A DNA stretch of 13,898 nt from Flectobacillus sp. (GTDB taxonomy: Bacteria > Bacteroidota > Bacteroidia > Cytophagales > Spirosomataceae), in assembly GCA_029865665.1 (NCBI GenBank), contig JARXAV010000006.1, positions 1 to 13,898 on the forward strand. The letters are read 5' to 3'. Below are positions 1 through 13,898 of the stretch, in pieces. Position numbers and translations under genes: made by a program. The notes under the pieces are model-generated. The model was not told where the DNA came from, did not search any database, and worked only from the letters and a program-made list of their open reading frames with translations. The stretch's first letter is position 1. The number at the start of each line of letters is the position of its first letter.

Positions 1-1086
1 AAGGAGCTATGGGACAGTAAAAGAAATCTACCATCTAAAAAACACCCTTTCTCAAAAGAGTTAATCATCAAAATTGAAAAAACTAAAATGGAGGCTAATC
101 GCCTTTTGATGAAGCTTGAAGATGAACAGAGTGACTTCTCTGCTGATGAGTTTACGAAAAAACTCAAAAATCAAAGTAAGCGAACAACGGTAATTACTTT
201 TCTGGACGAAGTTATAAGTGAATTACTTAAAGCTGATAAAGTAGGAAATGCCAATGTTCACAAGAACCTCAAGAATGTACTACTCCGCTTTAAAGAGCAA
301 CGAGATTTCACGTTTGTCGAATTAGATGGTTCTTTCCTTCGGAAGTTTGAACAAGACCTTCGAGGGCGTGGACTTTCTGAGGTATCTATGAGCGTCCACT
401 TCCGTACTTTACGAGCGTTGTATAATAGAGCTATCGTTGAAAGTTATGCAAAAAAAGAAGCAGACCCTTTTTTAGAGTTTAAGCTGTCTAAGTTTAATCT
501 CAAGACTCAGAAAAGAGCGATTAAGAAAGAAGAAATCTTGGCAATTGCCTCATTAGTAGTTGAAAAAGGTACAAGCCTTCATAACTCACAAAATATGTTC
601 CTTTTTAGTTACTATTGTTCTGGCATTAACATTAGTGATATACTAGAATTAGAATGGAGTAATATTTCCCCTGAGGGATTAATGGAATATATACGTAACA
701 AAACTCAACAACAGCAACAGGTTACTCTTCTCCCTCCTGCCCAAAAGATTGTAGATTACTATCGTCAGTTTAGCTCTGGCGAGTATGTATTTCCGTACTT
801 GGATAAAAGCAAACATAAAACGGAAGTGCAAATTAATAATCGTATTAAAAAGGTTACAAAGCAGATTAATCAAGATTTAAAGACTTTGGCTCAAATGGCA
901 GGGATCGAAACCAATTTGACAACCTATGTTGCTCGACATACTTTTGCAACAGTTCTAAAACGAAGTGGCGTAGAGATTGCTAAAATTAGCGAACTACTTG
1001 GGCATGAATCTGAGAAAACGACTAAAATTTATCTTGATTCCTTTGAAAATGAAGAGTTATATGAGGCTACGCTAAATCTACTGTAA
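1..1086 (+). CDS. Tyrosine recombinase (integrase), 5' end outside window
   Basis: This is a phage/transposon-type site-specific integrase that would insert and excise the element. The reading frame is open from base 1; the 29 codons before the ATG at 88 read as an arm-type DNA-binding domain (KELWDSKRN...), so the true start lies upstream and 88 is internal. Numbering from that ATG, a SAM-like core-binding domain covers about residues 33-125 and the catalytic domain about 145-332. Visible catalytic features are Lys205 on the beta hairpin (NKTQQ), Arg283 in YVARHTFA, His306 in LGHES and the nucleophile Tyr315 in KIYLDSF. The usual first arginine (GLR in most family members) is Asn181 in SGINISD, and the HxxR histidine is Tyr280. 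Both are seen as variants in Bacteroidota integrases; IntDOT also lacks the first arginine. It converges on the next gene across a terminator hairpin. The assignment is firm; only the start is missing. Confidence 0.93.
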   Translation, partial: KELWDSKRNLPSKKHPFSKELIIKIEKTKMEANRLLMKLEDEQSDFSADEFTKKLKNQSKRTTVITFLDEVISELLKADKVGNANVHKNLKNVLLRFKEQRDFTFVELDGSFLRKFEQDLRGRGLSEVSMSVHFRTLRALYNRAIVESYAKKEADPFLEFKLSKFNLKTQKRAIKKEEILAIASLVVEKGTSLHNSQNMFLFSYYCSGINISDILELEWSNISPEGLMEYIRNKTQQQQQVTLLPPAQKIVDYYRQFSSGEYVFPYLDKSKHKTEVQINNRIKKVTKQINQDLKTLAQMAGIETNLTTYVARHTFATVLKRSGVEIAKISELLGHESEKTTKIYLDSFENEELYEATLNLL

Positions 1087-1130
1087 AATACTTTTTCTTT
1101 ATTAAAGGAATTAAAATTCTAAAATACTAA

Positions 1131-1168
1131 TAGCTTAAAGGTTATGTTAAACCACAACCTTTAAGCTA
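1131..1168. terminator. Bidirectional terminator hairpin between convergent genes
   Basis: The arms TAGCTTAAAGGTT (1131-1143) and AACCTTTAAGCTA (1156-1168) are perfect 13-bp inverted repeats around a 12-nt loop. They sit in the 108-bp gap between the integrase stop and the stop of the minus-strand WYL gene. That position suits a terminator serving both strands. A-rich and T-rich stretches flank it but no long U-run follows directly. Confidence 0.6.
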
Positions 1169-1194
1169 CCAGTCATATACTATAAATATGCTTA

Positions 1195-2352
1195 TCAGGG
1201 TACTTTTTTTACCTTCGGCACTGGGTAAGTAAAGTTTAATATTTCAACCGATTGAATTCTACTTATTTGAAAATATCGCTCTGCATTTCTCAGTTCACAA
1301 AAAGCTTTCAAAAACGCTGTTTGATTCCCATCAAAAGGGACAATTTCTATTGAAGAGTCTCTTATTGTTCGTAGCGTTATGTTATTATTCTTATCATTAT
1401 ATTTAATTCTTAGGTACTTGCATTCATTCACACCTTCTTCAATTACCTCTCTTATTTGTTCCGTAAGACTTAATGAATTCTGCTTTATGTCCTTGAAATT
1501 AGGAGCTTTACCCACGAAAGGACTGCCTAGCTTAATCACACTAAGTTTTGAAATTTCAAACTCGTCAGGTTGATTTTTGATATAATCATACCCTACAATA
1601 AAGTATCTCCCGTGTACATATTTAATTGTTTGAGGCAAAAAAATGGTCTGGTAAGGAATTCTCTCTATTGTTATCGTGAGATGCTGATTCTCTTCAATAT
1701 AGCTTGAAAAATCATTAAGCATTTGTTCATCAATAGATGGAATCACATCCAGGGCTTCTATCGGAATTAGTGTTTCTGACATTTTGTCGGAAGCAGGATT
1801 AAACCACTTACATTTCACTAACTGCTCTGAAATCTCCTTCTTCTTCGCTCCTGTCTTAACATCAAATAGTGATTCTTTTTTTTCATTTCGGGGTGTACCA
1901 ATGACCTGCATTAATGGACTAACAAAGCTCAACATAGGAGTAAGACTTGCCCTCTCTTTCCCTCCTTCTATTTTGTACGAACTTTTTACCTTTGATAATT
2001 CTAATTGAGCAGTGGAGAGCGTTACAATTGTGCCAATAGCTTGATTTTTAGAAAGTTCATTTTCCCTTTTCTTGATTAATTTTAACAACTTGGAAGACAA
2101 CCATGCTTCTTCAAATTGAGATGATTTCGAGGAATACCAAAGACATTTACAACTTGAGGTTTTACCTTTTGTCTGAAGATTAACTCCAGTAAATTCGTCA
2201 TGAACATCTTGCAAATCGTTGATAATTTCAACAATTACCATCATTGGCGAAATAAGAAGAGGCTCTCCTGAGACAAGTATCTTATGATGCTCTGTAGCGT
2301 ATGGATGAGATTTTAGGGCAACAATATCGCCAAGGTTAAAAAGGTCTTTCAT
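1195..2352 (-). CDS. Double DUF2158-like / double WYL-like protein, probable regulator of the RT module
   Basis: This 385-aa protein is probably a ligand-sensing regulator. The start at 2352 (MKDLFNLGDIVAL) was chosen over the longer frame to 2478 because the conserved-looking sequence begins there, a TAnnTTTG box lies just upstream, and the extra 42 residues look non-coding. Residues 5-92 resemble DUF2158/YodC (GDIVALKS, SPMMVIVEI, then CKCLWY at 68-73). Residues about 140-205 look like a second copy (SPLM at 145-148, VKCKWF at 179-184). Residues about 221-278 look like a WYL fold (FLPQTIKYVHGRYFIVGYD), and 311-373 like a second WYL segment (LRIKY ... KAFCELRNAERYFQISRI). WYL domains bind nucleic acids or small ligands and are common in regulators of phage defence such as BrxR/CapW. 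No N-terminal winged helix is seen, which is unusual. The gene is divergent from the RT, with overlapping control regions. It could instead be a functional subunit of the system. Confidence 0.72.
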   Translation of the reverse strand: MKDLFNLGDIVALKSHPYATEHHKILVSGEPLLISPMMVIVEIINDLQDVHDEFTGVNLQTKGKTSSCKCLWYSSKSSQFEEAWLSSKLLKLIKKRENELSKNQAIGTIVTLSTAQLELSKVKSSYKIEGGKERASLTPMLSFVSPLMQVIGTPRNEKKESLFDVKTGAKKKEISEQLVKCKWFNPASDKMSETLIPIEALDVIPSIDEQMLNDFSSYIEENQHLTITIERIPYQTIFLPQTIKYVHGRYFIVGYDYIKNQPDEFEISKLSVIKLGSPFVGKAPNFKDIKQNSLSLTEQIREVIEEGVNECKYLRIKYNDKNNNITLRTIRDSSIEIVPFDGNQTAFLKAFCELRNAERYFQISRIQSVEILNFTYPVPKVKKVP

Positions 2353-2372
2353 TAGGTTCTTTAGTTTATATA

Positions 2373-2380
2373 CAAACATA
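2373..2380 (-). promoter_or_regulatory. Putative -7 box of the WYL gene promoter
   Basis: Read on the minus strand this is TATGTTTG, an exact match to the Bacteroidota consensus TAnnTTTG. The start of transcription would fall near 2366, giving a leader of about 14 nt before the ATG at 2352. No clear TTG -33 element is visible at the expected distance. Confidence 0.5.
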
Positions 2381-2391
2381 CTGAAAATATG

Positions 2392-2399
2392 TATATTTG
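2392..2399 (+). promoter_or_regulatory. Putative -7 box of the RT/ncRNA transcript
   Basis: TATATTTG matches TAnnTTTG on the plus strand, 11 bp from the opposing minus-strand box. Transcription would begin near 2406 and run through a leader of about 370 nt into the RT gene. With its partner box it forms an imperfect palindrome (CAAACATA / TATATTTG; inner ACATA 2376-2380 and TATGT 2388-2392), so one protein could cover both promoters. The -33 element is weak or absent. Confidence 0.5.
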
Positions 2400-2452
2400 T
2401 GTAAACCTTGATAAGAAAACATGAAAGACTCAGACATCTGGAATGGACTAAA

Positions 2453-2483
2453 AAGTTTAAGCTAGTCAAATAGCTCAAAACTT
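2453..2483 (+). other. Hairpin in the RT leader
   Basis: AAGTTT-a-AGCTA (2453-2464) pairs with TAGCT-ca-AAACTT (2471-2483) around the 6-nt loop GTCAAA, giving 11 pairs with one small internal bulge. It follows the putative start of transcription by about 47 nt and contains the in-frame TAG at 2463 in its 5' arm. Confidence 0.5.
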
Positions 2484-2484
2484 A

Positions 2485-2505
2485 CTGTATATGTAGATTA
2501 TACAG
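2485..2505 (+). other. Hairpin in the RT leader ending in ACAG
   Basis: CTGTATA (2485-2491) and TATACAG (2499-2505) form a perfect 7-bp stem with a 7-nt loop, immediately after the previous hairpin. Its 3' arm overlaps TTATACA, which recurs 140 nt downstream at 2638-2644. Confidence 0.45.
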
Positions 2506-2779
2506 GAAACGGATTGCAATGTGTTTTCCAAATAGCAACTAGTTTAGTAGCGGTTGAAGAAACTTCGCACAAATCCACATATATAAATATGCACTTGAAG
2601 ATGATTAATAACATAATACTGAAAGGTTTAAGCAAATTTATACAATTGAAATTTAGTGTGACTCAAGAATTTGGGTACTGGTCTTAACTCTTCGGAGTGT
2701 TATGTCTGAGATTTACCTGTTACACCTCTCTTGTTACTTATCAAGGTTTTACTTTCTCTATCTATTACGACCTATTTCA

Positions 2780-4372
2780 ATGCAAAAACAAAACCCTACT
2801 TGGCTAAAAAACAGAGGTTATTTACATATAACCACTCAAATTGATGTCAATGTTGATACACGAAAACTCTTATCTAAAATTCATAGCCCTAGTTATATCG
2901 CTCACTATGCGTTTTTTCCTCTTATCCATGCCTCAATAGACGAAAGAAGGTATAAGGTTAATCCTGAGAGTAGTGTTTCAGACTACAGGAAAAAAAAGAA
3001 ATGTCATTCTTATCAGGATACTAAAGGCGATTACCAAAAACATATCAAAAGTCGTCCTCTGCATTACGCTACCCACATGGATGCTTTAATCTTTGGCTAT
3101 TATGCACAGCTACTACAAGATAACTATGAAAAAGAATTAGCAAAAGATGATGAACTATCAAAATGTGTGTTAGCCTATCGAAGAATCAAAATTTCAGATG
3201 ATGTAGATAGCAAACATAAAAGCACTATTCACTTTGCAAAAGAAGTATTTGAGGAAATAAAAAAACGCTGTCAAGATGAAGACTGCATGGTTTTAGCGTT
3301 TGACATAAAAAGCTTTTTCTCTAGTTTAAATCATAAAAGATTAAAAAATGCGTGGGCTAAGTTAATCAATGAAGACCTGCTGCCGAAAGACCATTATAAC
3401 GTGTTCAAGGCTACCACTCGGTTTTCATATATTATGTTAGATGATCTCCGTATTCGTCGAAGTGTAGGAGGACGAAAAGCTCCATTCGACGAAAAAAACC
3501 TTGCAAAAATTAGAAATAAACATGGAATAAATGCCTTTTTTGCATCTCCAGAAGAGTTCAGACATAAGATAAAAAACAATGAAATTAAGCTTCATCGTTT
3601 CCCATTTAGAAAAGGAGAAGATACTCTACCAACAGGTATTCCTCAAGGACTTCCCCTTAGTGCTATTTTAGCGAACCTCTATCTTTTAGAATTTGACAAA
3701 CTAGTTTTACAAAAAATAACGAGAGAACTAGGCGGCTATTATAGACGTTACTCAGATGACATTGTAGTAGTGTGCAAAAAAGAAAATGTAGATGAAATAG
3801 AACGCTTTGTAACCGAATCAATCAAAGATAGCTTAGTAAAGATTAGCCCTGAAAAAACAGAAAAGTTCTTATTTACACAAAGAAGCTTTGGTAATCAAAG
3901 CCCTCGTTTAACCGCTGTTAAGCTGACAAATGATACTTGCATTATGGAAGCTCCTTTCATTTACTTAGGTTTTGCCTTTAATGGAAGCCAAACGCTCATA
4001 AAATCAACGAATCTTGCTAAGTTTTACAGAAGAATGATTTCCACTGTTAAGAGAAAAAGTAGATTGGCTCTTAAAATTGCAGAAGAGGAAGGAAGTAAAC
4101 CCGTAGTTTTTAGAAAAAGGTTATACAAACTATACATGACATCCAACTTAAATAAAACAATTATTAAAAGGCGGTACAAAAAACTTAAAATGAATGACGT
4201 TGGCGAGTATAGAATCGAATCAGTTGAAAAGGAACAAGATTTTCGGAGTAATTATTTATCCTACATGAACAGGGCAAGTACAATAATGAATGAAACTGCG
4301 ATTAAGAATCAAATCCGCAAACATAGAAACATTTTCAATCAAGCTTTTTTAAAGCATCTAAGAAGAAAATAG
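2780..4372 (+). CDS. Defence-type reverse transcriptase, probably DRT2-like (UG group)
   Basis: This 530-aa RNA-directed DNA polymerase has all core motifs: motif A AFDIKSFF with Asp175, the region before the palm TGIPQGLPLSAILANLY (about 285-301), the catalytic YSDD at 324-327, and the motif E-like YLGF at 395-398. The start at 2780 (MQKQNPTWLKNRGYLHI) is preferred to the ATG at 2702, whose extra 26 residues are a hydrophobic run unlike an RT N-terminus. The N-terminal WLKNRGYLHI and the stretch from TIHFAKEVFEEI to LPKDHYNVFKATTRFSY recall the UG2/DRT2 defence RTs from memory. Retron hallmarks NAxxH and VTG are not seen, nor a maturase or endonuclease domain. It lies behind a structured leader and faces a WYL-type gene. 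That it is a reverse transcriptase is certain; the DRT2 subgroup is an inference. Confidence 0.9.
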   Translation: MQKQNPTWLKNRGYLHITTQIDVNVDTRKLLSKIHSPSYIAHYAFFPLIHASIDERRYKVNPESSVSDYRKKKKCHSYQDTKGDYQKHIKSRPLHYATHMDALIFGYYAQLLQDNYEKELAKDDELSKCVLAYRRIKISDDVDSKHKSTIHFAKEVFEEIKKRCQDEDCMVLAFDIKSFFSSLNHKRLKNAWAKLINEDLLPKDHYNVFKATTRFSYIMLDDLRIRRSVGGRKAPFDEKNLAKIRNKHGINAFFASPEEFRHKIKNNEIKLHRFPFRKGEDTLPTGIPQGLPLSAILANLYLLEFDKLVLQKITRELGGYYRRYSDDIVVVCKKENVDEIERFVTESIKDSLVKISPEKTEKFLFTQRSFGNQSPRLTAVKLTNDTCIMEAPFIYLGFAFNGSQTLIKSTNLAKFYRRMISTVKRKSRLALKIAEEEGSKPVVFRKRLYKLYMTSNLNKTIIKRRYKKLKMNDVGEYRIESVEKEQDFRSNYLSYMNRASTIMNETAIKNQIRKHRNIFNQAFLKHLRRK

Positions 4373-4385
4373 AATTTGGATACAA

Positions 4386-4406
4386 CTTTAATCCCGATAG
4401 TTAAAG
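4386..4406 (+). terminator. Weak hairpin downstream of the RT
   Basis: CTTTAA (4386-4391) and TTAAAG (4401-4406) form a 6-bp stem with a 9-nt loop 13 bases after the RT stop. A run of six T ends at 4430, too far away for a canonical intrinsic terminator. It may only slow transcription before the next promoter. Confidence 0.25.
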
Positions 4407-4462
4407 GACTAAGTACAGAGTATCTTTTTTAAATAAAATCTCTTCTGACTTGTATTAATCTG

Positions 4463-4505
4463 AATTAATTCAAAATTAATTTTGTAAGTTGGGGCTGTAA
4501 TTTTG
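4463..4505 (+). promoter_or_regulatory. Putative promoter/operator of the STAND operon
   Basis: Two copies of the palindrome AATTAATT (4463-4470, 4474-4481) sit 11 bp apart. Two TAATTTTG boxes follow, each matching TAnnTTTG (4477-4484 and 4498-4505). The first would give a leader of about 22 nt before the ATG at 4513; the second is too close to the ATG for a normal leader. A TTG at 4450-4452 is the nearest -33 candidate, with a long spacer. The palindromes overlapping the first box could be a repressor site. Confidence 0.4.
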
Positions 4506-4512
4506 AGTAGCA

Positions 4513-5493
4513 ATGACAGAAGAACTGTTAGATGAATTATACATCAAATACCATAGGGCTAAAAGAGAGCAATTGGAGACAATAACAAAGAATATATATC
4601 TTAAAGCCAGAGACTTATCTACTGCCTCAGATACTGAATTTTGCATTATTGTTATTACTACTTGTTTCTATTTTCAATCTTCATTTATAGCGAATATTCT
4701 GAGAATGGCTGAGTATAATTATAAGCTTGGAGGAGGTTATGAATCTTTGATTTTAGGGATTATCTACTTACAAGAACGCCATAAGGAGAGTAAAAACGAA
4801 TTCTTCGAGAGAAAACCAGAAAAGCAAGCAGGTCTTATTTTTCGTAGGAAAAAACTATGGGGGTGGCTTCCTATCCCCTTCACAAAAACAACAGAGTTTG
4901 TAGGAGAGTATAATCCATATACGTTTAGTCTTGATTTAGAGGTTGTTAAAACTGAGGAAGAAATCATAAAACATTATGCTGAACTGAAAGCATCTTTATA
5001 CTATTATAAACGAGTTTTGATTAAAAATAAATGGTTGAAAGGAAAGTGTTATAACACTCTTATTGAAGGGAAAATTGACAAAAACAAAATAAAAGATATT
5101 ATGATGGATGTTATTACAGAATTTCAAAATCAAGCACCCGAGATTGTAAAATTTTTAGGTGCAGGATTAGCCAGTGGCTTGTTTTCTGGTGTCGGGGAAG
5201 ATTTTTGGAAGAAAATAAAAGACCACTTCAAATCTGAGAAAGACAAAGTCGTGATTGAAAAATTTGAAGAAAGCCCTAAAGATATTAGACTACAAGGTAA
5301 ATTAGAAGGCTTGTTAGAAAACAAAATGGCTGAAATGTCTCAACAAGACCTATTAGATTTATTCCAATTATTTCAAAAGGCAAAGGCTGATAACCCAACT
5401 ATACAAACAATCAGCAATAGTAAAAATGTACTTAATAATTCTACAATTATTGTTGGAGGAGATTTTCATTTAGGAGATAAAACAAATCAATAG
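4513..5493 (+). CDS. STAND-partner protein with glycine-rich helix and C-terminal pairing tag
   Basis: This 326-aa protein is not recognised as a named family and is the likely effector or adaptor of the NTPase encoded 9 bp downstream. The N-terminal half (1-200) is mostly helical, with a hydrophobic stretch at 42-62 (FCIIVITTCFYFQ) and a Trp/Pro-rich patch LWGWLPIPF at 115-123. Residues 210-230 form a glycine-rich hydrophobic segment (FLGAGLASGLFSGVGED) followed by FWKKIKDHFK; this recurs in bacterial conflict proteins and could be a membrane-acting glycine zipper. Residues 258-290 look like an amphipathic helix pair. The last 27 residues (300-326) contain NSKNVLNNS and GDFHLGDK, matching the start of the next protein. 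No signal peptide and no nuclease motif are seen. The existence of the gene is firm; its role is inferred. Confidence 0.8.
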   Translation: MTEELLDELYIKYHRAKREQLETITKNIYLKARDLSTASDTEFCIIVITTCFYFQSSFIANILRMAEYNYKLGGGYESLILGIIYLQERHKESKNEFFERKPEKQAGLIFRRKKLWGWLPIPFTKTTEFVGEYNPYTFSLDLEVVKTEEEIIKHYAELKASLYYYKRVLIKNKWLKGKCYNTLIEGKIDKNKIKDIMMDVITEFQNQAPEIVKFLGAGLASGLFSGVGEDFWKKIKDHFKSEKDKVVIEKFEESPKDIRLQGKLEGLLENKMAEMSQQDLLDLFQLFQKAKADNPTIQTISNSKNVLNNSTIIVGGDFHLGDKTNQ

Positions 5494-5589
5494 TTTCTAC
5501 TGATGGAGGAGAAGGTAAATATTCAAAATTCTAAAAATGTTGTTGTTAATAGTGAAATTAACGCCCTTGACGTACATATCGGAGATAAA
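5410..5589 (+). repeat. Paired peptide tag shared by the two STAND-operon proteins
   Basis: Codons 300-323 of the upstream gene (5410-5481) and codons 7-29 of the NTPase gene (5521-5589) encode the same motif. NSKNVLNNS aligns with NSKNVVVNS, and GDFHLGDK with LDVHIGDK. About 14 of 23 aligned positions are identical with a single gap. The pattern alternates polar and hydrophobic residues, as in short beta-solenoid turns. The two copies face each other across the gene junction, the C-terminus of one and the N-terminus of the other. Confidence 0.7.
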
Positions 5590-8500
5590 ATCTACAATAC
5601 ACCAAAACTTGAACTAAATAGGCAATGGTTTGAAGAAAGATTAGCAACAAGCATCAAGAATCTTGGAGAACGCTATTCTGAGGAACTGAATTTTGATTTA
5701 CCTATTGCTGGGGTATTCAATGGAATTGCAAGAAATCCAGCGTTTAAACATGAACTTAAAGAAAAGGTCAAAGAAGTTTTAAACAAGAATCACGATGTAG
5801 TTAGAACCCTCAAGCACTCGAAGGCTACTGATGAAAGTCTATTAAAGGTTATTCAAGACGTTGAAAGTAAAAACGTTGGGATAAACAATTGGCATAAAAG
5901 TATAAAATGGGAAGAAGGAAGTGGTCTCCAATATGAGGTGATAAAATCGTTAGTTGATAACTTACTTAAATTAGCTTCAGAAATTCGAGATTTTTTTTAT
6001 GAGTTAGAAAAATCAGAACCAACTCCATCCCAAAACTATGAATATCAAAAGTATAGTGATGAGAAGTATTACCTCAAACAATTATCGCAATCTGCCTATC
6101 AATTCGGAAGGTTTTTAGAATTCAATACATTTCAATTAGCTGAAAGACCTTGCTTGTTACTTAAAGGTGATGGAGGACATGGCAAATCGCACCTTTTGGC
6201 AGATGTAGCTAAAAATCACCAATTGAATGGAGGGTTCAGTATCTTATTATTAGGGCAACATTTCTATAAGGGCGAAGTATGGTCTGAAACTATCAAGCAG
6301 TTAGGCATTTCTGCATTCCATACGAAAGATGAATTACTCACACTTCTGAATGAAATAGGGAGAAAATCAGGAAAAAGATTATTATTTTTCATTGATGCTC
6401 TGAATGAGGGAGAAGGCAAGACAATATGGAAAAAACAATTAGCTGGATTTTTGGAAGACTTCAAAAAGTATCCGTGGTTAGGAGTTATTGTAAGTGTTAG
6501 AAGCACATTTCTCTCTCTAGTAGTACCTGAAAACTTACTCGAAGATAGCAATACATTAATACATATTACTCATCAAGGTTTTAGAGGACATGAATATCAA
6601 GCATCTAAAAGATTCTTTCAATATTTTGGACTACAAGCCCCTAAAATCCCTTTATTAACACCCGAATTTACGAACCCTTTATTTCTACTTCTTTTCTGCA
6701 AAGGGTTGAAAAAAAATGGATATGATCACATTCCAGAAGGAATGAATGGTATTTCAAAAATTATCCAGTTTTTCTTTCAAGGTATCAATAAATCTCTTTT
6801 CGATAAATTTGAGTTTGACCCTAAAATTAATATTGCGAATAAGTGTGCAGATAGTTTTGCAGAGTCTCTTAGCGAGCAAAAAGAAACCTTAATGAGTTAT
6901 GATAGTGCATTGCTATTATTGAATAATGTAGTCAAAACATACTCTCCCTTTGTACAAAATTGTAATATTTTGACTGAGTTAATTTCAGAAGGTCTGTTTA
7001 AGGAAAATGTAAGGTACAATCGAGATAATAAAGAATCTGAGTGCGTTATCGAATTTAACTATGAAAGGTTTGGAGATTATACAATTACTAATTTATTACT
7101 TGAAAAATATGTGGATAAAAACAACATCTCATCTGCATTCAAAAAGCATGGACACCTATCTTTCATATTAGAAAAACCTTATTATAATGACGGTATTATT
7201 GAAGCATTATCAGTTATTTTACCCGAAAAATTTGGAGAGGAACTTTTTGAAGTAATACCTAAAAAGTATTATCCTATGAAGTCTATTTCTGAGGGGTTTA
7301 TCAAAAGCCTAGTTTGGCGAAAAGAAGATACAATCACAGAGAAATCACTTGTATTTGTAGATGTAGTTCAACTAAATGGATATACTAATCAATATGTCGA
7401 AGTGATGATTTCAGTATGCTCAAATGAAAAACATTTATTCAATGCCAATCATCTACATAAAATACTCATCAATAAGACACTCGCCAAAAGGGATGAGCTG
7501 TGGACTACTTTTATTCATTCTGATTACACTCCAAAAGTGGATGAAGAGTATGAAATAGGGGCTATTCAGCGTCTTGTAGATTGGGCATGGTCGGAAGATG
7601 ATAAATCCTTCTTATCAAAAGAATCAATTTATCTCTCTGCCAAAACAATCACATGGTTTTTGACCTCTCCAAATCGTTTTTTTAGAGATGCTTCTACAAA
7701 AGGGTTAGTTTGTTTATTGACCAATAATTTACCCATTGCTTGTCGATTAATTGATGATTTTAGAGACATAAACGACCCTTACGTACTTGAAAGACTATTA
7801 GCCGCTTGTTACGGAGCAATCCTGAAATCTGAGATAAATGCTACTTCAAAGGATTTAGCCCAAAAAGTCTTTGATACTTTTTTTATACATGGAGAACCAC
7901 CTGTACATCTACTTACAAGGGAATATGCTAAAGGTATATGTGAGTTCTCTATACATCACAAACTACAAATTGTTGGAAATGTTGCTTTGGTTTATCCTCC
8001 TTATCAAAGCGTTTGGGAAGACCCGAAAATGACGGCTGAAAATTGTGTAAAAAAATATAGAATAAAAAACTTTGTGTATGATAAAGCAACGAGAGAAGAT
8101 AGAGGACAAAATAATTTAGTGCTTTCCACAAGTGAAGATTTTTATGATTTTAAAAAGTATCAAATAAGTACTAATTCAGAATTTTCTTCGATAAAAATAA
8201 ACGCTGAAAATGACTATAATGATTTTTATAATTCGCTGACAAGAAAGAAAAGACAGTGGTTGAAAATTTGTAAAGATACATATAGTCTTCTTCAAACAAT
8301 CCAAAAACTTAATACTTGGCATGAAAAAACCTTGAAACTATGTGAAGAGACAGAAAATACGATGTATTCATTCTTATCAGAAGGAGAAATAGCTAGATAT
8401 GAGAAAGACATTCGACCATTTTTTAAATCAAAATTTATAGCAAGTACTAATTGGAATAATAAATCCGAATTCAATAATGAGAAGATGGTTTCTTTCATCA

Positions 8501-9630
8501 TAGAACGAATTTTTGAATTAGGCTGGACAAAAGAGCTTTTTGGCAGTTTTGATTCTAGTTACAATGAATATGAAAGAAGGAGTACTCACATTCAAAGTAT
8601 TGGTGAAAAGTACAGATGGATAGCGTATTATGAGTGTTTGGCAAGAATAGCCGATAATTTTTTATACAGTAACAAGTGGAATAACGATAAAAGTGAGTCT
8701 CCTTTATCAGGAGCTTGGCAAATTGACAAAAGAGACATTGACCCAACCATTACTTCTAAACCTATCAAAATAGACACATGGAAAGAGTATAAAAAAACAT
8801 GGTGGTTCAATATTGAATATAATAATTGGCATAACTCCAACTGGTATCTAAAAGAAGATGATTTACCTAACATAGATAAACTAATGCAAGTAACTGACTT
8901 AGATGGAAAAGTATGGATTATGCTTGAGAGTTATCCGCATTGGATTAATAAAATTGATAAAGAGGATAGTATTGAAGATAACTATGCCAGAATGGAAATA
9001 TGGTATCATATAAGTTCATATTTTATCAAAAAAAACAATAAATCAAAATTTATCAAGTGGGCTTCAAAACAACGCTTCTACAACAGTTGGATGAAGCATT
9101 CAAAAGAATCATATCAAGTATTTAGTAGAGAATTTTATTGGTGTAATTCATATAAAGTAGGATTAGATGTAAAAACAGTTTTTTTAGACTGGCAAAGGTT
9201 AAGTGACAGAAGTGAAGATAAATTATATAAGTTTCAAGGTATTGTAACAACTGATGAATATAAGTGGGGTACAAGTCAAGATGCTTCCTTAGGTGAAGAT
9301 GGCAAGTATAGCTACTTCAGACCATCAATGAGTCTTTTTAACCTTTTGGGACTTTCATTTCATACTGATTGTGAATTTAAAGATAATACTGGTGAAATTG
9401 TTTGTATAGACCCTACGGGTAAACAAGAAGGACTATCTTGCTTATTAGTTAGAAAGGAGAAACTCATAGATGCTCTTGATAGAGAAGGATTAGAAATAGT
9501 CTGGACAATGATAGGTGAGAAACAGACACTTCATCGTGAAAACAAAGTACCTAGATTATGTTTCTCTGGTTGTTGTTTTTTAAATTCAGATAATGAAATT
9601 GAAAATAAGCTTTTTTTCGGGTCTTGGTAG
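5503..9630 (+). CDS. STAND/NACHT-like P-loop NTPase, probable phage sensor
   Basis: This 1375-aa protein has the layout of prokaryotic NLR-like defence ATPases. Residues 7-29 carry the beta tag shared with the upstream gene product. Residues 36-170 form a helical linker beginning RQWFEERL and NLGERYSEELNFDLPIA. The NTPase core has Walker A GDGGHGKS (222-229, Lys228), Walker B LLFFIDALNE (Asp298, Glu302), a sensor-type SVRSTF (331-336) and NPLFLLLFCKGL (391-402) in the winged-helix region. From about 690 to 800 there are HEAT-like helical repeats. Conserved-looking blocks follow: IGEKYRWIAYYE (from 1033), RDIDPT, and a C-terminal YFRPSM ... GLEIVWTMIGEK. There is no nuclease, TIR, SIR2 or protease domain in the chain, so the effector is probably the partner gene. 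Such proteins bind a phage product through the C-terminal repeats and oligomerise on ATP binding. Exact relation to the named Avs types is not determined. Confidence 0.85.
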   Translation: MEEKVNIQNSKNVVVNSEINALDVHIGDKIYNTPKLELNRQWFEERLATSIKNLGERYSEELNFDLPIAGVFNGIARNPAFKHELKEKVKEVLNKNHDVVRTLKHSKATDESLLKVIQDVESKNVGINNWHKSIKWEEGSGLQYEVIKSLVDNLLKLASEIRDFFYELEKSEPTPSQNYEYQKYSDEKYYLKQLSQSAYQFGRFLEFNTFQLAERPCLLLKGDGGHGKSHLLADVAKNHQLNGGFSILLLGQHFYKGEVWSETIKQLGISAFHTKDELLTLLNEIGRKSGKRLLFFIDALNEGEGKTIWKKQLAGFLEDFKKYPWLGVIVSVRSTFLSLVVPENLLEDSNTLIHITHQGFRGHEYQASKRFFQYFGLQAPKIPLLTPEFTNPLFLLLFCKGLKKNGYDHIPEGMNGISKIIQFFFQGINKSLFDKFEFDPKINIANKCADSFAESLSEQKETLMSYDSALLLLNNVVKTYSPFVQNCNILTELISEGLFKENVRYNRDNKESECVIEFNYERFGDYTITNLLLEKYVDKNNISSAFKKHGHLSFILEKPYYNDGIIEALSVILPEKFGEELFEVIPKKYYPMKSISEGFIKSLVWRKEDTITEKSLVFVDVVQLNGYTNQYVEVMISVCSNEKHLFNANHLHKILINKTLAKRDELWTTFIHSDYTPKVDEEYEIGAIQRLVDWAWSEDDKSFLSKESIYLSAKTITWFLTSPNRFFRDASTKGLVCLLTNNLPIACRLIDDFRDINDPYVLERLLAACYGAILKSEINATSKDLAQKVFDTFFIHGEPPVHLLTREYAKGICEFSIHHKLQIVGNVALVYPPYQSVWEDPKMTAENCVKKYRIKNFVYDKATREDRGQNNLVLSTSEDFYDFKKYQISTNSEFSSIKINAENDYNDFYNSLTRKKRQWLKICKDTYSLLQTIQKLNTWHEKTLKLCEETENTMYSFLSEGEIARYEKDIRPFFKSKFIASTNWNNKSEFNNEKMVSFIIERIFELGWTKELFGSFDSSYNEYERRSTHIQSIGEKYRWIAYYECLARIADNFLYSNKWNNDKSESPLSGAWQIDKRDIDPTITSKPIKIDTWKEYKKTWWFNIEYNNWHNSNWYLKEDDLPNIDKLMQVTDLDGKVWIMLESYPHWINKIDKEDSIEDNYARMEIWYHISSYFIKKNNKSKFIKWASKQRFYNSWMKHSKESYQVFSREFYWCNSYKVGLDVKTVFLDWQRLSDRSEDKLYKFQGIVTTDEYKWGTSQDASLGEDGKYSYFRPSMSLFNLLGLSFHTDCEFKDNTGEIVCIDPTGKQEGLSCLLVRKEKLIDALDREGLEIVWTMIGEKQTLHRENKVPRLCFSGCCFLNSDNEIENKLFFGSW

Positions 9631-9675
9631 GAAGTAATATCCAATATATTTTAATTAATTTTTAACTCACTTACA

Positions 9676-10806
9676 ATGAATAATTTAGTAGAACTAATGG
9701 TTCGCTCAGCAACTAATTGGACAGATGACGTAAATAATGGTGTAACCAATCCAGAAGATATTTTGAAGAATTTTATGCAGATGTCTTATTTGGATTATTG
9801 TTTAATAATTAACCCACGAATGTATGAGACTTTTGTATATGACAATAATGAAAATATTGAAATACTAAGGAGGAAATTAGATAGGAGAGATGATATTGAA
9901 CAGAAGATTGTTCTGATAAAAGCGGAAAAAGAAAAGATTATCAAATATCTTGAAAGCGATGAAATTTCAGAAACAATAGCTATGATTAATAAACCCCTCA
10001 CAATTTTTTTTGAGCTTATGAAAAGAAAGTATGAGCAAGTACAAAATGACCCTGATATAAGAGATTCTTTTAATGATAATGAGGGAAAAGAACTTAATAT
10101 TTTTATTGAAAATGCAGATAAGTTCTTAAAAGTTAAGAACGTTGAAGAAATAGGATTACCTAAAATCTTGGCAAATCAACCACAATTACTCAATTTATCA
10201 TCTCCTGATGAAATACTGAAAGAATTAAGTGAACAAAAATTAGATGACCTAACTCAATTCATTCCCATAAGTTTTTCAGAATTGGAAGAAATTAAACAAA
10301 TTGATAATGAAAAAATATTAGACGAGACTTTTAAGTTATTATATATTCATTCTCAGGAACAATATTTTGAGATGTTAAGAGTAGAGGAAAAGAGGATTAA
10401 AGAGGATTATAGTTTGATTGACACAGAGGAAACAATTGATACTAACGAAGGAACATCTAATGTACCTTTGGAGGACGACAAGAGTGATTTAGGAAATACA
10501 ATTACAATTGATTTGCCAAATTTTCCAAGAGCAAAAAATAGGAAAAATGGTGATAATTTAACTTGTTTATCAAGAGAAGCTACAGCTGTATTAATTGATA
10601 CATTAAGAGAAGCAAAAGCTTTTTTGGATGAAGAGTTTCAATCTAATATCAATATAGCAAAGGCAGTACAAGTATTAACTGGATTTTCATATAATAGATT
10701 AAGAACTGACCTGACTGCTATCTCTTCAAAAAAAGAGTTACTTGCAACCCAAGAAATTTTACAAAAATCTATCCACCTAATTAACAAGCGGTTAGCTAAA
10801 AAATAA
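9676..10806 (+). CDS. Hypothetical protein with HTH-like C-terminal domain
   Basis: This 376-aa protein was not recognised as a whole. The first 250 residues are acidic and helical, with charged coiled-coil-like stretches (LRRKLDRRDDIEQKIV, LIKAEKEKIIKYLE). A low-complexity acidic linker follows at about 243-275. The C-terminal 80 residues (LSREATAVLIDTLREA ... NINIAKAVQVLTGFSYNRLRTDL) resemble a small helical domain common in proteins of Bacteroidota mobile elements, where NxxIAKxxxxLTGxSxxxxR is a recurring pattern, possibly DNA binding. It starts 45 bp after the NTPase stop with no clear TAnnTTTG box between, so it may be transcribed with the STAND operon or belong to the element backbone. 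Cargo or backbone function remains open. Confidence 0.7.
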   Translation: MNNLVELMVRSATNWTDDVNNGVTNPEDILKNFMQMSYLDYCLIINPRMYETFVYDNNENIEILRRKLDRRDDIEQKIVLIKAEKEKIIKYLESDEISETIAMINKPLTIFFELMKRKYEQVQNDPDIRDSFNDNEGKELNIFIENADKFLKVKNVEEIGLPKILANQPQLLNLSSPDEILKELSEQKLDDLTQFIPISFSELEEIKQIDNEKILDETFKLLYIHSQEQYFEMLRVEEKRIKEDYSLIDTEETIDTNEGTSNVPLEDDKSDLGNTITIDLPNFPRAKNRKNGDNLTCLSREATAVLIDTLREAKAFLDEEFQSNINIAKAVQVLTGFSYNRLRTDLTAISSKKELLATQEILQKSIHLINKRLAKK

Positions 10807-10868
10807 GGATTGCAAGGTAAGGGTTACAAGGTTGCAATTCTCAAATACTCACAAATAACCACCATAAC

Positions 10869-10882
10869 TTCGAGCTATCGAA
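10869..10882. other. Small hairpin in the gap before the excisionase gene
   Basis: TTCGA and TCGAA flank a 4-nt loop in the 112-bp gap between 10807 and 10918. The same gap also holds two nearby copies of the palindrome TTGCAA. No consensus promoter box is visible here, and the short stem may have no function. Confidence 0.2.
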
Positions 10883-10918
10883 ACGGAAAACAAACTATCC
10901 TCCGAAGTAGAAACTCAA

Positions 10919-11251
10919 ATGGTGAACACACCGAAGTTAGTCGTAATGACATCAGAAGAATTAGAAAATCTAGTTCAAAATTCAGTTCGCAAGGCACTTG
11001 CCGAACAATCTTTTCCATCATCAATTAACGATGATAAACCTCTAAGTATTGACGAGGCTTCAGCTTTTTTAAAAAAGCCTAAATCAACAGTTTATCAGCT
11101 TACATCTGCTAGGAAAATTCCATTTGCGAAAATGGGAAAACAACTCTTATTTTTCAAGAAAGATTTATTAGTGTGGATCGAGGAAGGTAAAAAGAAAACA
11201 AAAAAAGAGATTGAGGCAGAGGGTTTCAATTTGATGGGGGGTAAGAAATGA
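10919..11251 (+). CDS. Excisionase-family helix-turn-helix protein
   Basis: This 110-aa protein has the MerR-like HTH_17/excisionase fold: LSIDEASAFLKKPKSTVYQLTSARKIPFAKMG followed by the wing KQLLFFKKDLLVWIEEGK (about residues 41-90), with a lysine-rich tail. Such proteins bind bent DNA at attachment sites or promoters, help the integrase excise the element, or regulate mobilization genes. An N-terminal helix (SEELENLVQNSVRKALAEQ) is typical of the Bacteroidota version. The start may be 10919 or the ATG at 10946 (MTSEELENL), which is nearer the usual family start. The stop overlaps the ATG of the next gene by four bases (ATGA), so the two are translationally coupled. Confidence 0.87.
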   Translation: MVNTPKLVVMTSEELENLVQNSVRKALAEQSFPSSINDDKPLSIDEASAFLKKPKSTVYQLTSARKIPFAKMGKQLLFFKKDLLVWIEEGKKKTKKEIEAEGFNLMGGKK

Positions 11252-11598
11252 GCCAGCAACTATCTTATAAACCCAAGACCTACGGAGAGGGTCTTGGGTT
11301 ACTTCACATAGTTATTCAAGAACTTCGGCAGAAACTTAGTAATTACGCTCAATCCCCTAATGCACAGGAACACTTTATCAATGAGCGTTTGGTAATTATT
11401 GAGAGCCTAGAAGAAGCTTACAAAGTTTTAAACACATTCACCTATTCAATTGCTTGGGAGTTATTAGAAACGGCTATGAAGGATTTAGATAAAAGAGATA
11501 CAGAACTTAGTGGTTATCATATCTTTTTTATCACAAAATCTCAGGGAAAAAATTTGGGTTCAATCACATTCAATCCTATGCAAAATGAGCATTTTTGA
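11248..11598 (+). CDS. Small hypothetical protein of the mobile-element backbone
   Basis: This 116-aa protein is not recognised. It starts with an ATGA overlap with the excisionase-like gene and ends 14 bases inside the DUF3987 gene, so it is sandwiched in a tightly coupled operon. The composition is helical (LHIVIQELRQKLSNYAQ, LVIIESLEEAYKVLN) with a strand-like end (GYHIFFITKS). There is no signal peptide or membrane segment. The overlaps on both sides support a real gene. Function unknown. Confidence 0.72.
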   Translation: MSQQLSYKPKTYGEGLGLLHIVIQELRQKLSNYAQSPNAQEHFINERLVIIESLEEAYKVLNTFTYSIAWELLETAMKDLDKRDTELSGYHIFFITKSQGKNLGSITFNPMQNEHF

Positions 11599-12967
11599 CG
11601 GACAATCTCCCTCTGCACAAGGTGAAACGATGGAGAATCATAACTTAGAAAATACCCCAACAATTCCCAAAGAGGTTTACGATAACTTGCCACAATTTTT
11701 GAACCAAGGAAGTAATGTATTTGCGACTAGTAGAGAAAAAGATGTTTTTCTAACGGGTGCATTGACAGTACTGAGTGGCTGTTTACCAACTATCTCTGGA
11801 CATTACAACGGTAGCAAAGTGTACGCAAATCTATACAGTTTTGTTGTCGCTCCTGCGGCATCAGGCAAAGGTGTAATGTCATGGGCAAAAGTATTAGGAA
11901 TTTCTTATCATAAACACTTGAGAGATACGTATAAATTACTATTTGATGAATATGACGAATCGCTGAAAGCTTACGAAAAAAGTAAAGGACAAATAGAGAA
12001 ACCCAATCCACCGCCTTTCAGATTATTATTTTCGCCCGCTGATACCAGTAAAGCAAGTTTAATTCAAACCCTTGCCGATTGCGGAGAGTCCGTTACGATG
12101 TTTGAAAGTGAAGCCGATACACTTTCTGGAACAATGGGTAAAGAATGGGGAGGATTTTCAGATTTATTCAGAAAGGCGTTTCACCACGAACCGTATAGCT
12201 ATCAACGTAAAACAGCTAATCAGTATATTGAACTTGAATTTCCACGCCTTTCAGTTGCTTTATCAGGCACGCCCTTACAAGTTCAACGGCTTATTCCCTC
12301 AGCAGAAGATGGATTATTTAGTAGATTCATTTTCTACGTTTTTCGAGTTGAAGCACATTGGCAAGACGTTTCACCATTTAATGGTCGTGTATCATTAAAC
12401 GACTACTTTGCAGACTTATCTGATAAAGTAAAGTGCATGATTCTTCATTACGAAAATGAAGAACCTATAAATTTTTCACTTTGTGAACATCAATGGAGAA
12501 AACTTAATGAATCTTTCGCTCAAAGGCTTGAAGACGTAAAAAATTTAGTCGGAGAAGATGCTTTGAGTGTAGTAAAACGTTCGGGATTAATAACATTCAG
12601 AATCGCAATGATTCTATCAATATTAAGAAAGTATAATTGCAATAACGGAACACCTGTAGAATTATATTGTGAGGATATTGATTTCAATACGGCAATGCTC
12701 TTGACTGAGGTTTATTTGAATCATTCACTAATCATTTTTAGTTCGTTAGTTAAAGGTAGTAACCAATCAAGTGGGGTCAAAAAGACCTTCTATGATAAAT
12801 TACCATCTCAGTTTGAACGTAAAGAAGCAGGATTATTGGGAAGTAAAATGATGATTTCGGATAGAACTGTGGGAAATTATCTAACTGATTTTATCAAAAA
12901 TGGATACCTGATTCAACCCAAATACGGATATTATAAAAAACAAAATAACAGTTTACCAACTTGCTAA
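11585..12967 (+). CDS. DUF3987 P-loop protein (mobile-element replication/mobilization)
   Basis: This 460-aa DUF3987 protein has a P-loop-like APAASGKG at residues 89-96 (Lys95) after an YSFVVAP strand, an acidic FESEADTL that may be the Walker B region, and the conserved block LSGTPLQVQRLIPSAEDGLFSRFIFYVF. The C-terminal ~60 residues look like a winged-helix (SSGVKKTFYDKLPSQFERKEA ... ISDRTVGNYLTDFIKNGYL). DUF3987 proteins are found next to primase-like and mobilization genes in Bacteroidota islands and may act as a helicase-like replication factor. The frame is open back to 11510, but the ATG at 11585 (MSIFDGQSPS), with a 14-base overlap, is preferred; 11630 (MENHNLEN) is also possible. Its stop codon lies in the arm of the inverted repeat that follows. 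Confidence 0.88.
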   Translation: MSIFDGQSPSAQGETMENHNLENTPTIPKEVYDNLPQFLNQGSNVFATSREKDVFLTGALTVLSGCLPTISGHYNGSKVYANLYSFVVAPAASGKGVMSWAKVLGISYHKHLRDTYKLLFDEYDESLKAYEKSKGQIEKPNPPPFRLLFSPADTSKASLIQTLADCGESVTMFESEADTLSGTMGKEWGGFSDLFRKAFHHEPYSYQRKTANQYIELEFPRLSVALSGTPLQVQRLIPSAEDGLFSRFIFYVFRVEAHWQDVSPFNGRVSLNDYFADLSDKVKCMILHYENEEPINFSLCEHQWRKLNESFAQRLEDVKNLVGEDALSVVKRSGLITFRIAMILSILRKYNCNNGTPVELYCEDIDFNTAMLLTEVYLNHSLIIFSSLVKGSNQSSGVKKTFYDKLPSQFERKEAGLLGSKMMISDRTVGNYLTDFIKNGYLIQPKYGYYKKQNNSLPTC

Positions 12968-13020
12968 GTTCGCTAAGTTGCCAACTTCATTTAGCAAGTT
13001 GGTAAACTTAGCAAGTAAGC
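12951..13020. repeat. 17-bp perfect inverted repeat with nested AAGTT repeats
   Basis: GTTTACCAACTTGCTAA (12951-12967) and TTAGCAAGTTGGTAAAC (12991-13007) are perfect inverted repeats with a 23-nt loop. The loop holds a smaller inverted pair AAGTTG/CAACTT. GCTAAGTT occurs at 12963-12970 and 12972-12979, and inverted as AACTTAGC at 13005-13012. The left arm includes the last codons and stop of the DUF3987 gene. No U-run follows, so a plain intrinsic terminator is unlikely. An operator, transfer origin or iteron-like site fits better. Confidence 0.75.
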
Positions 13021-13038
13021 AAATAGATAGTAGATATA

Positions 13039-13233
13039 ATGAAAATACCAACACATAAAGCCATGACGAGAACGCAATTAGCATCGTACTATGGTGTTTG
13101 TTTAGCAACATTCAATAAAATGATTAGTAAAGTACCTGAGTTTACCTTTAATAAATCAGCACGTTTACTTACTCCAAAAGAGGTTATAACTATCGTTAAC
13201 CATCTCGGAGACCCAATGACACCCGATGATTAA
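13039..13233 (+). CDS. Small helix-turn-helix protein
   Basis: This 64-aa protein has a single helix-turn-helix: TRTQLASYYGVCLATFNKMISKV, then RLLTPKEVITIVNHLGDP. The pattern (TrxQLAxxYGVsxxTF ... LLTPKqvexIxxxLG) is that of short DNA-binding proteins found between DUF3987 and mobilization genes in Bacteroidota islands. Basic and polar, with no other domain. It lies between two repeat-rich stretches, the inverted repeat ending at 13007 and the ATTAAC array starting at 13260, and so is a natural candidate to bind one or both. Its promoter is not evident; it may be read through from the DUF3987 operon. Confidence 0.75.
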   Translation: MKIPTHKAMTRTQLASYYGVCLATFNKMISKVPEFTFNKSARLLTPKEVITIVNHLGDPMTPDD

Positions 13234-13274
13234 TGTTGAATAACCTACTCCTACCCATGATTAACGATTCAACA
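13234..13274. repeat. 8-bp inverted repeat TGTTGAAT / ATTCAACA
   Basis: TGTTGAAT (13234-13241) directly after the HTH gene stop and ATTCAACA (13267-13274) are perfect inverted copies with a 25-nt spacer. It marks the left border of the repeat-rich intergenic region. Confidence 0.5.
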
Positions 13275-13331
13275 TATATCGTATATAGGTAAATGACAAA
13301 GGTTATCTCACATTAACATCAATTAACCTTG

Positions 13332-13372
13332 ATTAACCCTCATTAACTCGAAAGTGATTAATGAGGGTTAAT
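13332..13372. repeat. 14-bp perfect inverted repeat inside the array
   Basis: ATTAACCCTCATTA (13332-13345) and TAATGAGGGTTAAT (13359-13372) pair perfectly around a 13-nt loop, followed by a short T-run. It could end transcription from the left or act as an operator for the promoter box that starts right after it. Confidence 0.6.
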
Positions 13373-13380
13373 TATTTTTG
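13373..13380 (+). promoter_or_regulatory. Putative -7 box of the RHH-like gene
   Basis: TATTTTTG matches TAnnTTTG. It directly follows the 14-bp inverted repeat and precedes a second one at 13387-13409, where transcription would start. The leader to the ATG at 13443 would be about 56 nt. No clear -33 element is visible. Confidence 0.4.
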
Positions 13381-13386
13381 TAGCAC

Positions 13387-13409
13387 CTGATTAACAAGGG
13401 GTTAATCAG
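13387..13409. promoter_or_regulatory. 9-bp inverted repeat at the presumed start of transcription
   Basis: CTGATTAAC (13387-13395) and GTTAATCAG (13401-13409) flank a 5-nt loop. The position right after the -7 box suggests an operator for autoregulation, or an early RNA hairpin. Confidence 0.45.
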
Positions 13410-13442
13410 TAAAATTAATTTAAACACCAAAATATTTCAATC

Positions 13443-13868
13443 ATGAATATCCCAAAGACAGGCAGAGCATTACAATTGGAAGGATTACAATTTGCTCAGA
13501 ATAAAGTAACACTTGGATTCAAGTGTGATGCAGGAACAAAAATACAACTGGCACAAGAAGCTCAAAGGATAGAAATGACCTTGAGTGAGTATGTTGATAC
13601 GATTATTGCCAGTCGTCACTTATTAGTTCAACAATCTACTGATAACGAATCTACCTTAACATCACAACTAATACTCTTGGACGATGAAGTTGGTGAGCTT
13701 AAAGCAAGAGTAGCTTTTTATGAGAATGAATATATGCAAGAAATGTTCCGTAAATCAAACGGTACTATCCAAGAACTAACGGACTCAGAGGGTAATAGTT
13801 TCCACTTAACAGTCAACAGTATCCAAGATGTTTACACCGTACTTCTTAATCACGTACAAACAGCATAG
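13443..13868 (+). CDS. RHH-like / coiled-coil mobilization accessory protein
   Basis: This 141-aa protein has a strand VTLGFKCD followed by helices AGTKIQLAQEAQRIE and TLSEYVDTIIASRH, the pattern of a ribbon-helix-helix DNA-binding domain (about residues 22-58). A helical region follows (LILLDDEVGELKARVAFYENEYMQEM, 77-102) that is probably a coiled coil. Proteins of this layout occur at the same place in Bacteroidota mobilizable islands, between the replication block and the relaxase genes, and are thought to be relaxosome accessory factors or repressors. It is preceded by a promoter-like box and the ATTAAC array, a plausible binding site. The assignment to mobilization is by analogy; no relaxase is inside the window. 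Confidence 0.72.
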   Translation: MNIPKTGRALQLEGLQFAQNKVTLGFKCDAGTKIQLAQEAQRIEMTLSEYVDTIIASRHLLVQQSTDNESTLTSQLILLDDEVGELKARVAFYENEYMQEMFRKSNGTIQELTDSEGNSFHLTVNSIQDVYTVLLNHVQTA

Positions 13869-13874
13869 GAACTT

Positions 13875-13898
13875 ATGTTTATCGTTAAATCAAAGCCA
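13875..13898 (+). CDS. Possible start of the next gene, truncated by the window end
   Basis: An ATG six bases after the previous stop opens a frame of eight codons (MFIVKSKP) to the window end. The spacing suits an operon partner such as a relaxase or another mobilization gene, but eight codons cannot establish this. Confidence 0.3.

Follow-up and report, generated by a model that had tools for sequence, protein, structure and literature searches.

A divergent DRT2 locus of Flectobacillus whose conserved leader RNA is very probably the template of a stopless antisense neo

The window, by which we mean the whole stretch of DNA analysed here, comprises 13,898 nucleotides of Flectobacillus sp. 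(contig JARXAV010000006.1, positions 1-13,898, forward strand; GCA_029865665.1). It contains a reverse transcriptase (RT) gene at 2780-4372 on the plus strand, encoding a protein of 530 aa with a YSDD motif, and a divergent WYL-YodC partner gene at 1195-2352 on the minus strand (PADLOC RTasWYL-YodC, E 1.9e-109), and between the two lies a leader that is the main subject of this report. The start of the RT was taken as the ATG at 2780; a further in-frame ATG, at 2702, sits in helix P2 of the leader RNA. A WYL-YodC gene stands upstream in 20 of 22 loci, the window included, among them all 18 loci of the RT group described below. This RT-associated partner is already in PADLOC, and a PDB sequence search with the WYL protein returned no match. 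Beyond the RT the window carries an ORF of 326 aa (4513-5493), for which no family scored above a curated cutoff, followed by an Avs2 (AVAST type 2) anti-phage gene (5503-9630), which together with the adjacent DRT2 locus forms a defence island.

Several lines of evidence identify the RT as a divergent DRT2/UG2 enzyme of a Bacteroidota clade. It matches the PADLOC Drt2 profile with an E value of 7e-132 and scores 338.8 bits against the NCBIfam Drt2 model, short of the cutoff of 390 set for that equivalog. The best three matches of a PDB sequence search are 9lje, 9c0i and 9lv7 (E 5.5e-43 to 7.8e-41), two of which carry the name Drt2. An AlphaFold model (16-row alignment, mean pLDDT 81) finds the DRT2 structure 9c0i as its best Foldseek match in the PDB (E 1e-33, TM 0.79 on the target, rmsd 8), while DRT9 comes second with a weaker fold match (E 5e-12). 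In a tree of 30 RTs, the window falls inside an 18-member group with a support of 100/100, and all 18 members come from Bacteroidota, the phylum of the Flectobacillus contig L001. The sequences for comparison were collected from overlapping genome sets, in which the RT search passed its threshold in 15/150, 12/390, 5/395, 6/151, 3/196 and 3/296 genomes, and leaders were drawn from the window, from L001 and from further genomes. Second copies of loci already in the set (L002, L029, L034-L036, L039 and L041-L043), the leaderless fragments L008 and L017, the paralogue match L003, the more distant RTs L009-L016, L023 and L037 and the loci of a pattern scan for RT-6-like RNAs were excluded, and L021, L022, L027 and L040, which fall outside the 18-member clade, were unused for the analysis of repeat units; in L040, with just 470 nt of upstream DNA, the RNA ends were not located. 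The 18 clade loci contain sister pairs, and we estimate that they represent roughly ten independent cases. Among viral contigs we found one distant relative and no close ones.

The leader encodes a conserved and covarying non-coding RNA (ncRNA) of the DRT2 type, located at about 2403-2749 on the plus strand and immediately 5' of the RT. Its two ends are joined by three closing helices, P1 (2403-2414/2738-2749), P2 (2430-2437/2702-2709) and P3 (2445-2450/2679-2684), inside which lie the hairpins P4 (2454-2458/2478-2482) and P5 (2485-2491/2499-2505) and a 3' hairpin (2658-2664/2673-2678), the last overlapping the motif TGACTC (2659-2664) at the conserved start of the 3' scaffold. The initial annotation had described this leader as a structured RNA preceded by a TAnnTTTG box, and had called for covarying stems to be sought in aligned homologous leaders; box, structure and covariation are all found. 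The box, TATATTTG at 2392-2399 on the plus strand, is identical in L001. We take it to be a Bacteroidota -7 box, likely the promoter of the ncRNA and perhaps that of the RT as well. The leader folds more stably than its shuffles (z -2.8; 1/100 shuffles as stable). When the consensus structure, predicted on five close sequences, was mapped to 15 of the 18 clade members, 91.8% of the cells of its 44 pairs proved paired, compared with 33-48% in slid controls, and 26 of the 44 pairs show changes on both sides versus 12.8 in shuffles (sd 2.1; 0/500 reach 26). Pairing of the 5' with the 3' end in P1 is possible in all 20 RNAs with located ends, which had been picked by eye for such pairing.

Inside this scaffold we find an open reading frame on the opposite strand, which the initial annotation had overlooked. 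The antisense frame is free of stops from 2501 to 2662 (54 codons) and contains the proposed neo repeat unit, CINLLKPFSIMLLIIFKCIFIYVDLCEVSSTATKLVAIWKTHCN, of 132 nt or 44 stop-free codons at 2513-2644 on the minus strand. The unit is bounded by two inferred jump repeats on the plus strand, ATTG-1 at 2513-2516, where each round of reverse transcription is proposed to stop, and ATTG-2 at 2645-2648, where the end of the cDNA is proposed to land. These sites were defined by position in 13 loci including the window, the 5' site as ATT(G/A) eight bases into a GG element that follows hairpin P5 and the 3' site as ATT(G) 14-19 nt before TGACTC. The resulting units measure 132, 135, 96, 141, 138, 198, 192, 195, 105, 189, 189, 192 and 198 nt; all 13 are divisible by three and stop-free in antisense and, counted from the junction, they share one register. 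The product of the shuffle probabilities for 13 open units is about 1e-25 if they are taken as independent, which the sister pairs are not. In the remaining five clade members an in-phase, antisense-open unit also exists, with the repeats TATT, TTATCA, TGTTTAT, GTTTAT and ATTTA, so that, with sites chosen post hoc, 18/18 members admit a unit that has a length divisible by three and no antisense stop. The jump-site rule itself is not blind, since the pairs and the distance window were selected after the scans had been inspected. A test that makes no use of openness looks for a second, in-phase copy of the 4-mer of the 5' jump site at 13-20 nt on the 5' side of the 3' anchor; such a copy is present in 12/16 clade loci (L026 and L028 left out), where shuffles predict 0.58, at a distance window likewise chosen post hoc. 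In L004, L005 and L038 the jump repeats have just ATT in common. The same zone also holds out-of-phase direct repeats, some of them longer, with 10 bases in L007 and 8 in L019, and direct repeats of at least four bases, sorted by unit length modulo three, number 39, 27 and 12. Between sister units the gaps total multiples of three, and the individual gaps are not always such multiples. Apart from close kin, the 13 units are unlike one another and share a single invariant residue, Asn. When the antisense frame, 54 residues in translation, was searched against some 5.8 billion predicted proteins, no candidate homologue emerged, which is a weak test at this length.

If two units are joined end to end, the junction predicted in the window and in L001 creates, in antisense, the arrangement TTG-N20-TAAATTTG, which we read as a Bacteroidota -33/-7 promoter. 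The -7 box lies at 2633-2640 on the minus strand and begins 4 nt past the predicted junction, the -33-like TTG at 2529-2531 (within TTTG, 2532-2529) stands 5' of it in the concatemer only, and a candidate ATG start codon of Neo follows in the window at 2612-2614, with its first base at 2614. A TTG/-7 pair spanning the junction arises in 1.6% of shuffled units of the window and in 0.8% of those of L001. Such a TAnnTTTG junction promoter is present in 2/13 loci, these two, and absent from the other 11 units. As a positive control, a sigma70 junction promoter together with an open antisense unit was recovered in 3/8 more distant DRT2-type loci (L152, L154 and L155).

Taken together, we conclude with high confidence that the leader provides a divergent DRT2 of Bacteroidota with its ncRNA, which serves, via a concatemer, as template for an antisense stopless neo, a reading built on the RT family, the covariation of the ncRNA, the antisense-open units divisible by three and the repeat motifs, all of which were computed here. 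Both the assignment to the DRT2 family and the antisense strand of the proposed neo are well supported. The further steps, namely cDNA synthesis, the exact junction, transcription, toxicity and the trigger, we infer. The scaffold, formed by P1-P5 and the 3' domain, would present the 132-nt template (2513-2644) to the RT, which would copy it as far as ATTG-1; the cDNA end would then re-anneal at ATTG-2 and copying would restart, so that 132-nt repeats would accumulate in tandem. Once the second strand has been made, each junction would place the TAAATTTG of a repeat 20 nt behind the -33 TTG of the preceding one, and transcription opposite to the ncRNA would yield a stopless mRNA with an ATG (2614) near its start. 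This mRNA would encode a repetitive hydrophobic Neo that presumably halts the growth of the infected cell. For this Bacteroidota clade the model provides a concrete prediction of strand, unit length and jump repeat, and for two members also of the promoter.

Three other explanations of the antisense frame and its surroundings have to be weighed against this model. The first is a conventional small antisense gene that needs no concatemer, for example one for a hydrophobic peptide resembling type I toxins, running for 38 codons from the ATG at 2614 to a TAA at 2500-2498. Start codon, stop codon and hydrophobic sequence are indeed all present in the window; however, the position of the stop is not conserved, for the frame extends well beyond it in L007, L019, L024 and L030, and a gene of this kind has no need of a unit divisible by three or of phased repeats. 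In the genome of the window, moreover, roughly 100 bp separate the -33 and -7 boxes, whose order is wrong for such a gene, and the protein search, a test of low power at 54 residues, gave it no homologue. We regard a conventional gene as very improbable.

The second explanation keeps the RNA as template but has the sense strand translated. It follows from the initial annotation, which had read the leader as a candidate neo-type template on the strength of an open sense frame at 2466-2684, and it was drawn from a signal that is real. The counts of stops are exact (none in the frame divisible by three, 12 and 6 in the other two, with TAG at 2463 and TAA at 2685 as bounds), and the chance of a given frame being open is as small as had been stated, for this occurs in 0.05% of 4000 dinucleotide shuffles, near (2/3)^18 or about 0.07%; in the same shuffles any sense frame is open in 0.4% and any of the six frames in 1.6%. 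In addition to the 73 open codons of the window, the chosen unit is also sense-open in L004, and with other in-phase repeats it can be made so in L001, L006 and L025. Against this, the chosen units are closed on the sense strand in 16/18 clade members and open in only the window and L004 (2/18), whereas all 18 are open in antisense; the L005 unit has at least three stops in every sense frame, and the known DRT2 reads the antisense strand. The offset between the two frames can largely account for the signal. At this offset a sense stop requires an antisense codon TAN or CAN, and since the hydrophobic codons of the antisense neo mostly avoid these, the sense frame tends to stay open as a shadow: when the antisense codons of the window are permuted, this sense frame is free of stops in 25% of permutations and the other two offsets never. 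The open sense frame at 2466-2684 is for the most part a by-product of the hydrophobic codons on the antisense strand, and the signal noted earlier indicates that opposite strand. Of the earlier reading, the DRT2-like RT, the conserved ncRNA and a neo-type template within it are supported; the open sense frame as repeat ORF is not supported, and the repeat unit is shorter than that frame (2513-2644 versus 2466-2684). Substitution patterns cannot separate the strands, as at this offset both frames use one and the same wobble base; between the window and L001 substitutions number 9, 9 and 11 by codon position with no third-position excess, and in the other three pairs this base is somewhat enriched in substitutions. 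By longest open run, antisense leads in 15/20 ncRNAs and sense in 5/20 (window, L001, L004, L006 and L022). Translation of the sense strand is, in our judgement, even less probable than a conventional antisense gene. The competing suggestion of a small sense gene from ATG 2421, broken by the TAG at 2463, is unlikely as well, for that region holds the RNA helices P1-P4 and the frame is closed in the four closest relatives too, by CTA TAA in L001, L004 and L006 and by stops within the template in L005. Least probable of all is the third explanation, that the RNA is the scaffold or template of a non-coding cDNA, as in DRT9 and DRT10, which are reported to produce non-coding repeats (PMC12632851), and that nothing is encoded by the open frame; the absence of the junction promoter from 11/13 units speaks for it, but antisense openness and divisibility by three hold throughout the clade.

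The antisense DRT2 model agrees in strand with what has been described for Klebsiella, where two reports place neo and its mRNA on the strand opposite the ncRNA (PMC12039810, PMC11100668). The window and KpnDRT2 also have in common the RT family and fold, an upstream ncRNA, a central template between structured arms with short direct repeats at its ends, and a unit divisible by three with an antisense stopless hydrophobic ORF. In KpnDRT2 a promoter is rebuilt at the junction, and a candidate counterpart is predicted here in the window and L001, 2/13 loci. The two systems differ in the jump repeat (ATTG in the window, ACA in KpnDRT2), in unit length (96-198 nt in our 13 loci, 111-129 in KpnDRT2), in the promoter, which is here of Bacteroidota type, in the length of the RT, which at 530 aa is about 100 aa longer than the 425 of KpnDRT2, and in the divergent WYL-YodC partner. 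A scan of the window zone for an in-phase ACA pair found none, and the ATTG pair occurs there instead; the ACA pair was reported for relatives of KpnDRT2 and so characterises their subgroup, whereas it need not extend to every DRT2. Long closing helices between the 5' and 3' ends are a further feature of the window ncRNA and a possible difference from KpnDRT2. The preprint PMC11100668 further reports that in more divergent DRT2 clades ncRNAs are predictable and Neo annotation is harder, and suggests alternative mechanisms; these clades may include the present one. In the literature searched, which left most subscription papers uncovered, we found no neo of this WYL-associated clade. DRT9 and DRT10 are reported likewise to form repetitive cDNA on an RNA template, as we propose here, but their products are homopolymers or short repeats, with no coding unit reported in the part of PMC12632851 considered.

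Comparison with Rfam gives a further, weaker link to known RNAs. The segment 2483-2548 (+), which comprises hairpin P5 and GGAAACGGATTG, matches RT-6 (RF03027), itself a hairpin followed by GGAAGgGGAUUG, with 24.3 bits against a gathering score of 46.7 (E 0.0029 for 361 bases), a sub-threshold match that spans just the 5' handle and the start of the template. In the RT-6 consensus GGAAGgGGAUUG is followed by UGUCAA, the complement of the sigma70 -35 element TTGACA. RT-6 exceeds its cutoff in 0/26 DRT2-bearing genomes; three of the 26 (G001, G086 and G672) have a weak match at the DRT2 leader and the remaining weak matches fall elsewhere, while 6/14 control genomes match at the same loose threshold. 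At E 1e-5 RT-6 is not found in 355 genomes of the class, a null that shows no absence because the controls also gave no match. Matches occur in 2/10 sources in one scan and in 0/15 in another, L006 and L024 among the latter, and the RT-6-like pattern scan returned 106 stretches. Among 15 sources scanned, RT-13 is over its cutoff just 5' of a DRT2-type gene (L155:1112-1181) and RT-12 reaches 43.6 against a cutoff of 44.2 just 5' of another (L152:1036-1161); neither family matches in the window. From the position of these matches, and with weak support from the genome scan, RT-6, RT-12 and RT-13 may be fragments of DRT2 ncRNAs.

Another finding of this study concerns the templates of L001 and L004, two genomes of one genus. 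Their RT genes are identical at 1575/1590 bases (99.1%), their scaffolds at 105/110 bases on the 5' side and 104/107 on the 3' side, and the downstream DNA at 991/1000 bases. The templates (L001:5815-5949, 135 nt; L004:3220-3315, 96 nt), by contrast, are unrelated, as they align no better than shuffles (65/500 as good), and both are open in antisense. The template of the window resembles that of L001 (103/132 identical). With arms and RT 95-99% alike around unrelated templates, the L004 template was most likely replaced between intact scaffold arms, a single case read from the alignment. From this one locus pair we tentatively propose, with confidence a little short of even, that Neo is an exchangeable cassette, in which RT, partner and scaffold stay constant and the template is replaced by an unrelated sequence that obeys the same rules, being divisible by three in length, open in antisense and hydrophobic. 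If so, the effector would be diversified in a serotype-like manner, perhaps to escape phage countermeasures, and its toxicity would reside in a repetitive hydrophobic make-up and not in one fold. The unrelated templates of such near-identical loci suggest modular evolution of a hidden effector.

The defence genes of the window are probably carried by an integrative element, as the regions 1-1086 and 10919-12967 encode a tyrosine integrase, cut by the start of the window, an excisionase-like HTH protein and a DUF3987 protein. At 13310-13405 there is also a cluster of short direct and inverted repeats containing ATTAAC, overlain by a sub-threshold match to the Rfam family Aar; this cluster is perhaps an origin or attachment region.
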